Source: Serratia liquefaciens (lineage in GTDB: Bacteria > Pseudomonadota > Gammaproteobacteria > Enterobacterales > Enterobacteriaceae). From it: 64,000 nucleotides of DNA. Shown here piece after piece: positions 6,060-11,202 of the stretch. Position numbers and translations under genes: made by a program. The notes under the pieces were generated by a model. The model searched no databases. It was not told the origin of the DNA and worked only from the letters and a program-made list of their open reading frames with translations. Where the stretch lies: the NCBI GenBank assembly GCA_012719855.1, contig JAAXZN010000023.1:1-64000 (forward strand), given 5' to 3'. The first letter of the stretch is position 1; each line of letters starts with the position of its first letter.

Positions 6060-6827
6060 TTAAGCGGCATATTTATCCACCAGCGCACGCAAAATGGCGG
6101 CGGTTTCGGCATCCATCACACCGTCATACTGCCGTTGACGGAAATGCAGCTGGAAGGCACGAACCAGCTGGCGGTAACCTTCTGCATTGGTCGCCGCCGA
6201 GGTGTCGTAACCGTATTTGGCGAATAACGCCAGCAAATCCGGCTGTGCGGGCACACCCTGGCATTGGTACTCATGCTGATAACGCTGCTTTACCGCGTCG
6301 TCATACCAGGCACCGACACCGGCCAGATACAGCTGACGCCACGGGAATTGCGGGCCGGGATCGCTTTTGCGGCCCGGGGCAATATCGGAATGTGCCACGA
6401 CGTTAACCGGCGTGATATCCGGATAGCGCTGCAGAATGTTTTGCGTCAATTGAATCACCGCCGCAATCTGTTGCGGGTTAAACGGTGGGAAGGTGATGTC
6501 TTCGCCATCCCCGCTCGCCAGATTGACGATCTCAATGCCAATCGCCGTATCGTTGAGATTCGAACGATTGCCCCACTGGCTGGTGCCGGCGTGCCAGGCC
6601 CGCTCGACTTCATCGACCAGATTGAAAATCCTTACGCCGCTAAAGCCCGTCGCCTTATAGGTTGGATCTTCGGGATCCGGCACCAGATAATGAGCGCTGA
6701 CCGACTTGCCGGTCAGTGACTGCACCGAATCAGCAAAATTCTGTGCGGTATAGTGCAGCACCAAAAAGCGCACGCGGTGACCGAAGCTGGCTACCGAACG
6801 GTAGCTGTTGTAATCCATACTGAACAT
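6060..6827 (-). CDS. AmpDh3-like N-acetylmuramoyl-L-alanine amidase with peptidoglycan-binding domain
   Basis: This 255-residue zinc amidase (Amidase_2 fold) cuts the bond between MurNAc and the L-Ala of the stem peptide. The probable zinc ligands are His25 (FLVLHYTA), His146 (VVAHSDIAPG) and Asp156 (RKSDPGP). The C-terminal third (about 175-255) resembles a peptidoglycan-binding domain. It has no signal peptide or lipobox. Segment by segment it resembles Pseudomonas AmpDh3 (DYNSYR at the start, RVRFLVLHYTA, YDG.MD.ETAAILRAL..KY at the end), a type VI secretion substrate, rather than the lipoprotein AmiD. The start at 6827 has AAGGA 7 nt upstream. It is divergent from an S24 repressor gene across an operator array. 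No immunity-like gene is evident next to it. Confidence 0.88.
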   Translation of the reverse strand: MFSMDYNSYRSVASFGHRVRFLVLHYTAQNFADSVQSLTGKSVSAHYLVPDPEDPTYKATGFSGVRIFNLVDEVERAWHAGTSQWGNRSNLNDTAIGIEIVNLASGDGEDITFPPFNPQQIAAVIQLTQNILQRYPDITPVNVVAHSDIAPGRKSDPGPQFPWRQLYLAGVGAWYDDAVKQRYQHEYQCQGVPAQPDLLALFAKYGYDTSAATNAEGYRQLVRAFQLHFRQRQYDGVMDAETAAILRALVDKYAA

Positions 6828-6957
6828 CGTAGATTCCTTGTGGGTTAAACCTGTGTAATCCAACCACTGTAGAGGGCGAGTATATTCGCCCTGGCTCATA
6901 CTGGCGCGACTTGCAGCGCCCTACAATTCCTTCATGGACCTTGTCCACCCGTCAATA

Positions 6958-7023
6958 TTTAGCTAATTGCTAAATTTAAAGCAAGCTAAATTTAGCAAAA
7001 ACGATATTTACCTTTTTGCTAAA
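6958..7023. promoter_or_regulatory. operator array for the S24 repressor (TTTAGC/GCTAAA repeats)
   Basis: Five copies of a 6-bp half-site lie between the divergent amidase and repressor genes. TTTAGC (6958-6963) and GCTAAA (6969-6974) form one site with a 5-nt spacer. GCTAAA (6985-6990) and TTTAGC (6991-6996) form the perfect palindrome GCTAAATTTAGC. Another GCTAAA lies at 7018-7023. Clusters like this are typical of CI-like repressors that control themselves and a divergent gene. A TTGACG reading towards the amidase (6954-6949) abuts the first site and could be its -35 element. Confidence 0.75.
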
Positions 7024-7041
7024 GAATGCGATCATCCGGCA

Positions 7042-7788
7042 ATGGAAACCAAAGAAATAAGACGCAATAATTTGCGCGAGCTGATGGCTAGCTACGCCCG
7101 ACAGGGTATCAACCAGAACGATTTTGCGGTGCTGGTTGAGTCCTCTTCGCCCACGCTAAGCCAAATCAGCGGTGAAAAGTCCTCCCGTAACCTGGGCGAT
7201 AATCTCGCCAGACGCATCGAGGCCAAACTGAACCTGCCCAAGGGCTGGTTCGACGTGTTCCATGAAAAAGAGTTGGTGCGCCCGTTCGATAACGTGGCGG
7301 CGGAGTCGGATTTTCAACCCGCCCGCCTGAAGCCGGTGGTCTGGGATGATACCGAACAGGACAAGGAAGAGTTTGTGGAAATCCCCCTGCTGGATATCAA
7401 TTTTTCTGCCGGCGATGGCTGTTATGAAATCGTCGATCGTGAAGAGTTTTCGCTGATTTTCCGTCGCTACTACCTGCACAAGATGGGGGTGGCGGTGAAT
7501 GCCGCGCGGATCATCCGCATTTCAGGATCCAGCATGGAGCCCCGGCTGCAAGACGGTGACGTGGTGGGGATCAATACCGATGACACTCGTATCCGAGAAG
7601 GGAAAACCTACGCAATTCGCCACGGTAATTTGCTACGGGTAAAAGTGCTGATCGAACAGCCCGACGGTGGCGTCACCATTCGCTCGTTGAACAGAGAAGA
7701 ATACCAGGACGAACACCTGAGCTACCCTCAACGCAAAGACCAACTGGTGGTTCTGGGGCGCGTTTTCTGGTCGTCTTCGTCCTGGTAA
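7042..7788 (+). CDS. HTH plus S24 peptidase repressor (LexA/CI-like)
   Basis: This 248-residue protein has an N-terminal helix-turn-helix (about 5-65, NQNDFAVLVESSSPTLSQIS) and a C-terminal S24 self-cleavage domain. The expected catalytic Ser164 (SGSSMEP) and Lys201 (LLRVKVL) are present, with an Ala-Gly pair at 123-124 (FSAGDG) as a candidate cleavage site. The spacings (41 and 37 residues) are close to those of LexA. It should repress the divergent amidase and itself, and could be released by RecA-stimulated self-cleavage after DNA damage. The start at 7042 is chosen because the longer frame (6967) begins inside the operator array; its ribosome site is weak. It looks like a phage-derived repressor, but no other phage genes are nearby. 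Confidence 0.87.
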   Translation: METKEIRRNNLRELMASYARQGINQNDFAVLVESSSPTLSQISGEKSSRNLGDNLARRIEAKLNLPKGWFDVFHEKELVRPFDNVAAESDFQPARLKPVVWDDTEQDKEEFVEIPLLDINFSAGDGCYEIVDREEFSLIFRRYYLHKMGVAVNAARIIRISGSSMEPRLQDGDVVGINTDDTRIREGKTYAIRHGNLLRVKVLIEQPDGGVTIRSLNREEYQDEHLSYPQRKDQLVVLGRVFWSSSSW

Positions 7789-9674: not shown

Positions 9675-9774
9675 TCCCACGCATTTCGGCGATTAACGCT
9701 AACGACTGCTTGGCATCACACATCTCGCCGTTACAATAGAGGGATATTCCCTACGCCACGTGAGAGATGCGAAT

Positions 9775-11202
9775 TTGAGCAGCAAGGCACCGGCCACATT
9801 TTATATTCACGACTACGAGACCTTCGGTAAAAGTCCCTCCCTGGATCGCCCGGCGCAGTTTGCCGGCGTGCGTACCGATATGGATTTCAACATTATCGAA
9901 GAGCCGTTGGTCATCTACTGCACCCCGGCCGATGACTACTTGCCCGATCCTGAAGCGGTGATGATTACCGGTATCACACCGCAGCTGGCGTTAGCCAAAG
10001 GCGTCAACGAGGCCGAATTTGCGCGCCAGATCCATCAGGCGTTCAGCGTGCCCGGCACCTGCATTCTCGGTTACAACAACATCCGCTTCGATGACGAAGT
10101 CAGCCGTAATATTTTCTACCGCAGCTTCTACGATCCCTACGCCTACAGTTGGCAAAACGGTAACTCGCGTTGGGATCTGCTTGATGTGATGCGCGCCTGT
10201 TATGCGCTGCGCCCGGACGGCATCGTCTGGCCAGAAAACGAAGAGGGTTTCCCCAGCTTCCGTCTGGAACACCTGACTCGCGCCAACGGCGTCGAGCATG
10301 AACACGCCCATGACGCCATGTCGGACGTTTACGCCACTATCGCCATGGCGAAACTGGTCAAGCAGGCACAACCGCGACTGTTCGATTTCCTGCTGCAACA
10401 CCGCAACAAGCATAAGCTGAACGCCCTGATCGACATCGCAGAGATGACGCCATTGGTGCACGTTTCCGGCATGTTCGGTGCCGCGCGCGGCAACACCAGT
10501 TGGGTATCGCCACTGGCCTGGCATCCGGACAACAAGAACGCCGTCATCATGTGCGATTTGGCCGGTGATATGACTCCCCTGCTGACGCTGAGCGCCGACG
10601 AGCTGCGTGAGCGGCTGTATACCCGCCGGGACGATCTGGCGCCCGAACAATCGCCGGTACCGATCAAACTGGTGCATATCAACAAGTGTCCGGTGCTGGC
10701 GCCGGCCAAGACTTTGTTGCCGGAAAACGCCGAGCGACTGGGGATCGACCGCCAGGCCTGCCTGCAAAACTTGCAGCTGCTGCGCCAGCATCCGGAGGTG
10801 CGTGAAAAAGTGGTGGCGTTGTTCGCCGAAGCCGAACCTTTCAAAGGCTCTGACGACGTCGACGCCCGGCTGTATGACGGTTTCTTCAGCGATGCCGACA
10901 AGGCTGCGATGAAAATCATCCAGCAAACTAAGCCGCAGAACCTGCCGGCGCTGGATCTGACTTTCAGCGATGGGCGCATGAAGGAACTGTTGTTCCGTTT
11001 TCGTGCCCGCAACTACCCCAATACGCTGGACGATGCCGAACAACGCCGCTGGTTACAGCACCGCCAGGAAGCCTTAAGCGCCGAGCGGGTACAAAGCTAC
11101 GTGCTGCAACTGGAATCGTTGTACAACCTGCATGAAGGCGACAAAGAAAAGACTGCGCTGCTGAAGGCGCTGTTTGAATACGGCAAACAATTGGTGGGTT
11201 AA
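9775..11202 (+). CDS. sbcB: exodeoxyribonuclease I
   Basis: This 475-residue 3'-5' single-strand DNA exonuclease acts in recombination and mismatch repair. The DEDDh exonuclease motifs are visible: HDYETFG near residue 13, GYNNIRFDDEVSR near 100, and AHDAMSDVYAT near 183, followed by SH3-like and helical domains. It aligns along its whole length with E. coli SbcB (475 residues). I choose TTG 9775 because GAGAG sits 8 nt upstream and the length then equals E. coli; the frame is open to GTG 9760, which lacks a ribosome site. The neighbour plaP (yeeF) is also next to sbcB in E. coli. Confidence 0.95.
   Translation: MSSKAPATFYIHDYETFGKSPSLDRPAQFAGVRTDMDFNIIEEPLVIYCTPADDYLPDPEAVMITGITPQLALAKGVNEAEFARQIHQAFSVPGTCILGYNNIRFDDEVSRNIFYRSFYDPYAYSWQNGNSRWDLLDVMRACYALRPDGIVWPENEEGFPSFRLEHLTRANGVEHEHAHDAMSDVYATIAMAKLVKQAQPRLFDFLLQHRNKHKLNALIDIAEMTPLVHVSGMFGAARGNTSWVSPLAWHPDNKNAVIMCDLAGDMTPLLTLSADELRERLYTRRDDLAPEQSPVPIKLVHINKCPVLAPAKTLLPENAERLGIDRQACLQNLQLLRQHPEVREKVVALFAEAEPFKGSDDVDARLYDGFFSDADKAAMKIIQQTKPQNLPALDLTFSDGRMKELLFRFRARNYPNTLDDAEQRRWLQHRQEALSAERVQSYVLQLESLYNLHEGDKEKTALLKALFEYGKQLVG

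Follow-up and report, generated by a model that had tools for sequence, protein, structure and literature searches.

A putative captured lambdoid phage switch beside the AmpDh3-type amidase gene of Serratia

The closest described system is the AlpR-AlpA/ampDh3 (PA0807) pathway of Pseudomonas aeruginosa, which likewise places an autocleavable DNA-damage repressor upstream of an orthologous amidase. According to the available text of two reports, ciprofloxacin induces AmpDh3 through autocleavage of AlpR and then AlpA (PMC9998450), and AlpR/AlpA control of ampDh3 by DNA damage is also described in PMC7969949. The pathway has two steps, and its antiterminator serves the alpBCDE lysis genes as well. 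In the same accounts, AmpDh3 is mainly cytoplasmic and lowers AmpC (PMC9998450), and the ampDh3 locus makes no apparent contribution to lysis (PMC7969949). The available part of PMC12494544 calls AmpDh3 periplasmic, with action on prey cell walls, and an excerpt of PMC12165300 lists it, by homology, as a T6SS effector family in all Serratia species.

Two further homologues are documented. Yersinia enterocolitica ampD3 is 65.2% identical to AmpDh3, is predicted to be cytoplasmic and acts with AmpD on ampC; it resembles the amidase described here as a cytoplasmic-type AmpDh3 homologue but, in the available text, is described without such a repressor (PMC4988969). In Serratia marcescens, ampC stood at 0.91-fold after deletion of ampD, 1.38-fold after deletion of amiD2 and 44-fold after deletion of both, with amiD2 redundant with AmpD for AmpC control; the excerpt mentions neither a repressor nor operators (PMC10777825). 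Since the double deletion had this effect and ampD alone did not, AmiD2 is a recycling amidase active in ordinary growth. On the regulatory side, the closest systems are the lambdoid cI-OR-cro regions of H-19B/ST2-8624, mEp506, Chronis and KO-TP1. They share with Serratia the operator class, the O1-O3-ATG spacing, the helix class and the PR position, whereas Serratia has an amidase for cro, no surrounding phage and a conserved chromosomal position in the genus.

Here, we analysed 64,000 nucleotides of Serratia liquefaciens (contig JAAXZN010000023.1; "the window"). Unlike in AlpR-AlpA, a single repressor gene adjoins the amidase gene, the operators are of phage type, and no lysis genes were recognised among the neighbours scanned.

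The amidase, the repressor and their conservation

The two genes are divergent, as the first-pass annotation had described. The amidase gene (6060..6827, minus strand) encodes a zinc N-acetylmuramoyl-L-alanine amidase of the AmpDh3/AmiD2 type, 255 aa long and with no evident signal peptide, and starts at 6827 behind the ribosome-site-like AAGGAATCTACG. This start was backed by tblastn, with residues 1-255 covered in 25 and residues 1-253 in one of 26 same-genus loci at which the two genes are intact; a 279-aa reading from 6899 was dropped, 6827 being the start kept across same-genus loci. Pfam matched Amidase_2 (1.5e-27), and the AmpD-type essential residues His, Glu, His, Lys and Asp were present as H25, E99, H146, K154 and D156, matched to AmpD by motif with roles taken from the available text of PMC4988969. 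AmpDh3 (PDB 4bxd) aligned with residues 1-255 at 342 bits, and E. coli AmiD (202), AmpDh2 (about 154) and AmpD (54) all scored below it. This full-length match bears out the AmpDh3 likeness proposed at first pass and, as we read the alignment, makes the amidase an AmpDh3 orthologue. A peptidoglycan-binding domain had also been assigned to this signal-less zinc enzyme. The Amidase_2 match and the lack of an evident signal peptide agree with that description, but Pfam showed no such binding domain at E <= 0.001, and it is the full-length alignment to AmpDh3 and AmiD that suggests one.

The S. liquefaciens genome also holds a separate AmiD-like relative (50%) and an AmpD-like match. We take the amidase to be the published S. 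marcescens amiD2, because the deletion primers printed in the available text of PMC10777825 match its gene. The 5' primer matched 20/20 directly upstream of the amidase ATG in genomes G008 and G021 and with at most two mismatches in others, and the 3' primer matched 20/20 in G008. No phage carrying this amidase was found: the viral scan gave three relatives at 34-36%, and the best record of the phage collection, a 63% amidase, was rejected as a phage gene, the record being a Salmonella genome contig. On that contig (L100, Salmonella enterica subsp. houtenae), the 63% identical amidase has a tmRNA gene and transposase genes less than 5 kb away, is also near iroB and has no such repressor annotated beside it, which suggests horizontal transfer of the amidase alone.

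The repressor gene (7042..7788, plus strand) encodes an HTH-S24 protein of 248 aa starting at ATG 7042; TTG 6967 was dropped as the start, since ATG 7042 fits the operator-ATG spacing of phages. Pfam matched Peptidase_S24 (2.3e-15), and the residues named at first pass, A123, G124, S164 and K201, were verified. The Ala-Gly pair, Ser and Lys were retained in 45/45 repressor proteins (23 distinct, some species being represented twice). Ser and Lys lie 37 residues apart. The Ala-Gly spacing had been called LexA-like; the pair and the dyad are in place and the Ala-Gly to Ser distance of 41 equals that of phage BZS1 CI, but it exceeds the 35 of LexA (UmuD 36, lambda CI 38). Eight residues separate Pro from Ala, as they do Pro from Cys in UmuD, and LexA has seven. 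The first-pass reading also depended on the pair lying inside the cleavage loop; by eye it does, but in the automatic alignment the pairs did not line up. With the loop placed in this way, the Ser/Lys dyad and the scissile Ala/Cys-Gly of RecA-dependent self-cleaving S24 repressors are present, and the protein is a CI/LexA-type repressor with an apparently intact cleavage site.

At E <= 0.001, no second match of the repressor's kind turned up in the genome; two other S24 places are, by sequence likeness, presumably LexA and a UmuD-like protein. A PDB sequence search gave a best E of 0.07, and a class-level search matched 1/369 genomes, the window's own. The nearest phage repressor overall was BZS1 CI (57%), which has the C-terminal domain of the repressor and not its helix. 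Two Serratia prophage-type repressors (L031, L032) had only the C-terminal domain in common with it and lacked the operator; together with L298 and L299, they combine a C-terminal domain at 72-77% with an unrelated N-terminal domain, that is, a domain swap.

The immediate neighbours of the pair are chromosomal, namely TmaR, a FUSC transporter and an SDR-type reductase. In agreement with the first-pass annotation, none of these neighbours was recognised as a phage-lysis, T6SS or immunity gene, and no holin was recognised beside the amidase. The frame at 9760 is presumably exonuclease I (sbcB). No LexA box (CTGTN8ACAG, at most one mismatch) occurred between 4761 and 14940 of the window.

A search for the divergent pair in Serratia, as proposed at first pass, found it intact in 26/30 same-genus genomes, which puts the pairing beyond chance; in all 26 the genes were divergent with a gap of 174-224 bp. 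The repressor was present in 27/30 (E <= 1e-20), at the locus intact in 26 and with stops in G028, and an amidase orthologue (81% or more) was present in 27/30, plus a stop-bearing fragment in G028. G015 had only an AmiD-like relative and G027 neither gene. A reduced genome of 1.9 Mb (G026, L059) held the amidase at 81% identity, with no repressor found. Among 295 family genomes, the amidase passed the 1e-80 threshold in 38 and the repressor the 1e-50 threshold in 15, nine of these at 84% identity or more. The flanks of 26 family-sample amidase loci, judged by eye over about 1.5 kb each side, showed four Serratia-like pairs (L063, L064, L065, L067) and 22 loci with other neighbours, and the 15 genomes with a repressor match include none of these 22. 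Named genomes, when scanned, gave 17 repressor loci, all titled Serratia. Sixteen were at the amidase-repressor locus, and the 17th is a prophage-type relative matching residues 107-248 only.

Operators and promoters shared with lambdoid phages

The intergenic DNA holds three operator-like sites: O1 (TTTAGCTAATTGCTAAA, 6958..6974), a perfect palindrome; O2 (6991..7007), degenerate with one good half (TTTAGC); and O3 (TTTACCTTTTTGCTAAA, 7007..7023). Offsets of O1, O2, O3 and the repressor ATG are 0, 33, 49 and 84. O1 overlaps the -10 of the predicted amidase promoter (6956..6984, minus strand; TTGCTT, 17 bp, TAAATA) at the phage PR position, and O3 overlaps the -35 of the predicted repressor promoter (7007..7035, plus strand; TTTACC, 17 bp, GATCAT, with TGC ahead of the -10) at the phage PRM position. 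By position, O1 would block the predicted amidase promoter and O3 the repressor's own, and the whole appears to be a captured lambdoid right operator, which the first-pass annotation had missed. Six bases separate the predicted -10 from the repressor ATG downstream, an arrangement like that of a leaderless mRNA, with transcription predicted to start near the ATG. A generic promoter scan listed neither predicted promoter, and the 130-nt amidase leader was not found to be structured (z = -1.42). The final T that phages keep in the -10 of PR is missing in the host, and because of this loss the host amidase promoter is probably weaker.

O1 was the only perfect TTTAGCN5GCTAAA in the 5.46-Mb genome. 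O1/O3-like sites with at most one mismatch numbered 12 genome-wide, O1 and O3 included, compared with 23 for a reversed control, and a large repressor regulon was rejected on these counts. Four further operator-like sites were viewed: L145 and L147 lay inside a long frame, and L144 and L146 did not. The L144 site (TTTACCGCTATGCTAAA, position 888, G008:C1:1380687) recurs in many genomes of the genus, lies between two long frames in G008 and is also present in G015, which lacks the repressor. Among the sites viewed, no further conserved repressor target was established beyond O1/O3.

Scanning IMG/VR viral contigs for the O1-O3 pattern gave at least 120 stretches and at least 80 loci. Among the matches listed, TTTAGC stood at +33 and ATG at +84 in 80/80 loci, and a divergent ORF of 66-85 aa, cro-sized and recognised by size and position without homology to cro, was found in 79/80; the one exception (L195) comes from a Serratia chromosome and sits at the edge of a provirus contig. 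Apart from five listed repressors that read short, the remaining 75 reduce to 49 distinct proteins, every one of which matched the N-terminus of the Serratia repressor. A TTG -35 and a TAAANT -10 lay at one fixed position around O1 (PR) in 79/79 of the viral loci listed. In the host set of 33 loci, which counts L089 and L124 from the same species and the provirus-contig copy L195 and leaves out L091, as its O3 did not fit the search pattern, the TTG was kept at this position in 25/33. It was one base out of register in L015, L029 and L090, and absent in L092 and in the amidase-less L089, L124, L122 and L125.

Phage records with this helix class numbered 49 (40 phages listed), and we inspected nine of the 40, plus BZS1. 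The operator class was present in 6/6 same-helix phages, which form three distinct groups. Klebsiella phages Chronis and KO-TP1 had offsets of exactly 0-33-49-84, counted to the ATG where the alignment begins; mEp506 and ST2-8624 had O1-O3-ATG at 0-49-84 with deposited starts; and Pseudomonas phages Pacha_bin_1 and AV001 had sites 50 apart. The deposited repressor starts of Chronis, KO-TP1, Pacha_bin_1 and AV001 lie upstream of the aligned ATG. OR1 and OR3 of ST2-8624 are deposited as repressor binding sites, and their spacing is identical to that of Serratia O1-O3. The operator class was found in 0/4 other-helix phages; yong2, SfV and EPP-1 have a different helix and TGTACC-type palindromes, and common operators with BZS1, the nearest CI, were rejected as its cro-cI region differs in sequence. 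An S24 domain was present in 4/4 phage repressors scanned.

The exact O1-O3 pattern, which overlooks Serratia relatives whose sites are 48 apart or whose O3 is altered, occurred in 10/392 family genomes. Six are Serratia (genus g1) at the amidase-repressor locus, and in the other four the ATG of a repressor lies at the same offset, opposite a divergent ORF of 75-82 aa; none of the matches listed was to the reversed control pattern. Of the features of a lambdoid cI-OR-cro region, the operator/ATG spacing and the HTH plus S24 domains were found in Serratia, and cro opposite OR was not. Judged from gene order, the amidase stands in place of cro, and because it occupies the cro side of OR, we regard the Serratia region as a derivative and not as a phage immunity region.

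Nine IMG/VR provirus contigs (L289-L297) have the Serratia chromosomal repressor at or close to their start. They are collinear with the window to 9816 (8/9; one to 9811) and then carry different DNA, the end at 9816 falling just inside the sbcB-like frame, within its first codons (window 9760-9816). What we take to be a DinI-like frame was seen in two of the four contigs read. These provirus calls overreach into the chromosome, and sbcB, 2 kb from the putative captured switch, seems to serve prophages as an attachment site.

Loci without the amidase

We compared 34 loci. O1 was perfect in 29/31 loci with the amidase, the exceptions being the decayed L030 and L092, versus 0/3 without it, indicating that O1 goes with the amidase. 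O3 was found with at most one mismatch in 29/31 loci with the amidase (exceptions L030 and L091) and in 3/3 without. That the operator covering the predicted amidase promoter disappears together with the amidase supports the first-pass proposal that the repressor controls the amidase. Two loci stood apart: L091 has the amidase and a degraded O3, and L092 (G115) has the divergent pair with a gap of 96 bp and an intact amidase, with O3 present and O1 and the PR-like promoter missing.

The amidase-less species are S. silvae, S. oryzae and Serratia sp. H1w, absence being judged over some 3.5 kb of either flank in each of them and genome-wide (1e-80) for S. silvae G106 only. They retain the repressor at 91-92% identity, and O3 is unchanged. 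The three form one clade, and its sister L092 has lost O1. The "all Serratia" statement in the excerpt of PMC12165300 does not fit these species, unless relatives such as AmiD are counted. Repressor dN/dS was 0.031-0.051 among the three species (dS 0.44-0.87) and 0.016-0.062 in ten pairs from amidase-bearing species (several with dS > 1); amidase dN/dS covers 4/10 pairs, 13 amidases having been caught among 32 loci. Because the amidase-less species keep the repressor under such strong purifying selection, a second role for it in these species is probable. In G106, which has the repressor alone, a looser operator pattern gave 6 sites versus 0 in the control, and a small repressor regulon may persist there.

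Phage immunity is the boldest option for this second role. The repressor could be kept mainly for a different task, most probably immunity to incoming TTTAGC-class lambdoid phages, or else control of another promoter, with the amidase a secondary passenger. The repressor-only clade with its unchanged O3, its dN/dS within the range of amidase-bearing species and the loss of O1 in its sister all point this way, as does the abundance of the same operator set in viral contigs, and no Serratia phage was among the 49 same-helix phage records. However, O1 is perfect at nearly all amidase loci, and selection therefore seems to maintain amidase control at those loci; no other conserved target could be established; and outside genus g1 the operator pattern occurs in 4/386 genomes, too few for an avoidance test in Serratia. 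We consider this reading unlikely.

The proposed switch and its standing

The reading we favour, and hold to be reasonably probable, is that of a captured phage switch (cI, OR, PR and PRM), with the amidase for cro, used for damage-responsive recycling. A Serratia ancestor would have captured a lambdoid immunity switch comprising cI, the full right operator (O1-O2-O3), PR and PRM, and ampDh3/amiD2 would have come to lie in the cro position, transcribed from the former PR. In growing cells, repressor on O1 would hold the amidase at basal transcription, and repressor on O3 would regulate its own gene. After DNA damage, activated RecA would stimulate the repressor to cut itself at Ala123-Gly124, so that its level falls and that of the amidase rises. 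The amidase would then strip stem peptides off cytosolic muropeptides and thereby damp AmpR/AmpC signalling, as with AmpDh3 in P. aeruginosa. The sequence itself shows the OR architecture, the orthology, the conservation and the tie of O1 to the amidase; binding, cleavage, induction and the effect on AmpC are predictions. By analogy with that species, DNA-damage induction of the Serratia amidase is plausible, and the wiring of the two looks convergent, since induction of P. aeruginosa AmpDh3 uses another repressor (AlpR, then AlpA).

Several points count against the captured-switch model. Repression would be leaky or weak, because AmiD2 works without deliberate induction in the available account of S. 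marcescens (PMC10777825); the -10 is weakened and neither promoter is listed by the generic scan, L092 keeps the amidase but has lost O1, L091 has a degraded O3, repressor-only species exist, the Ala-Gly to Ser spacing is long, and AmpDh3 has been reported as periplasmic and as acting on prey cell walls. A bolder extension, in which the core Serratia pair both ties a recycling amidase to DNA damage and gives prophage-free immunity to TTTAGC-operator lambdoid phages, seems to us improbable.

The switch might also be a fossil as far as DNA damage is concerned, with a repressor that still binds and controls its own gene but has lost cleavage, and an amidase expressed at a constant basal rate. In the excerpt of PMC10777825, AmiD2 at its basal level already stands in fully for AmpD with respect to ampC, and both the long spacing of 41 and the weakened -10 fit this reading. 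However, the cleavage residues are retained in every one of the repressor proteins compared, the spacing is that of BZS1 CI and O1 is kept perfect, and we give the fossil reading little chance. The first-pass proposal that DNA damage turns on a cell-wall hydrolase for self-lysis or T6SS delivery, which can draw on the AmpDh3 orthology, on an end-to-end match to a PHROG labelled endolysin (2.9e-63) and on the prey-wall and effector-family statements in the parts available of PMC12494544 and PMC12165300, is very improbable, as no holin or immunity gene was recognised beside the amidase (an adjacent one is expected of a T6SS effector, and the neighbours are TmaR, FUSC, SDR and the repressor) and the available texts make AmpDh3 cytoplasmic with an AmpC role (PMC9998450), its locus without apparent part in lysis (PMC7969949) and amiD2 a recycling gene (PMC10777825). 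Damage-responsive recycling is favoured over self-lysis, and T6SS delivery of the Serratia amidase is possible by analogy.

The titles and abstract openings listed on AmpDh3, AmpD homologues, amiD2, the Serratia SOS response and domesticated cI, with subscription journals mostly outside, held no description of this switch; its parts are known and their combination is new. If the captured-switch model is true, Pseudomonas and Serratia separately placed the same recycling amidase under a DNA-damage repressor, and this would argue that a link between genome damage and muropeptide recycling is adaptive. DNA-damaging drugs would be predicted to change AmpC induction in Serratia. The locus would further provide a clear example of an entire lambda-type switch put to new use, another gene having taken the place of cro, and Serratia would offer natural species in which the output is lost but the repressor is kept.
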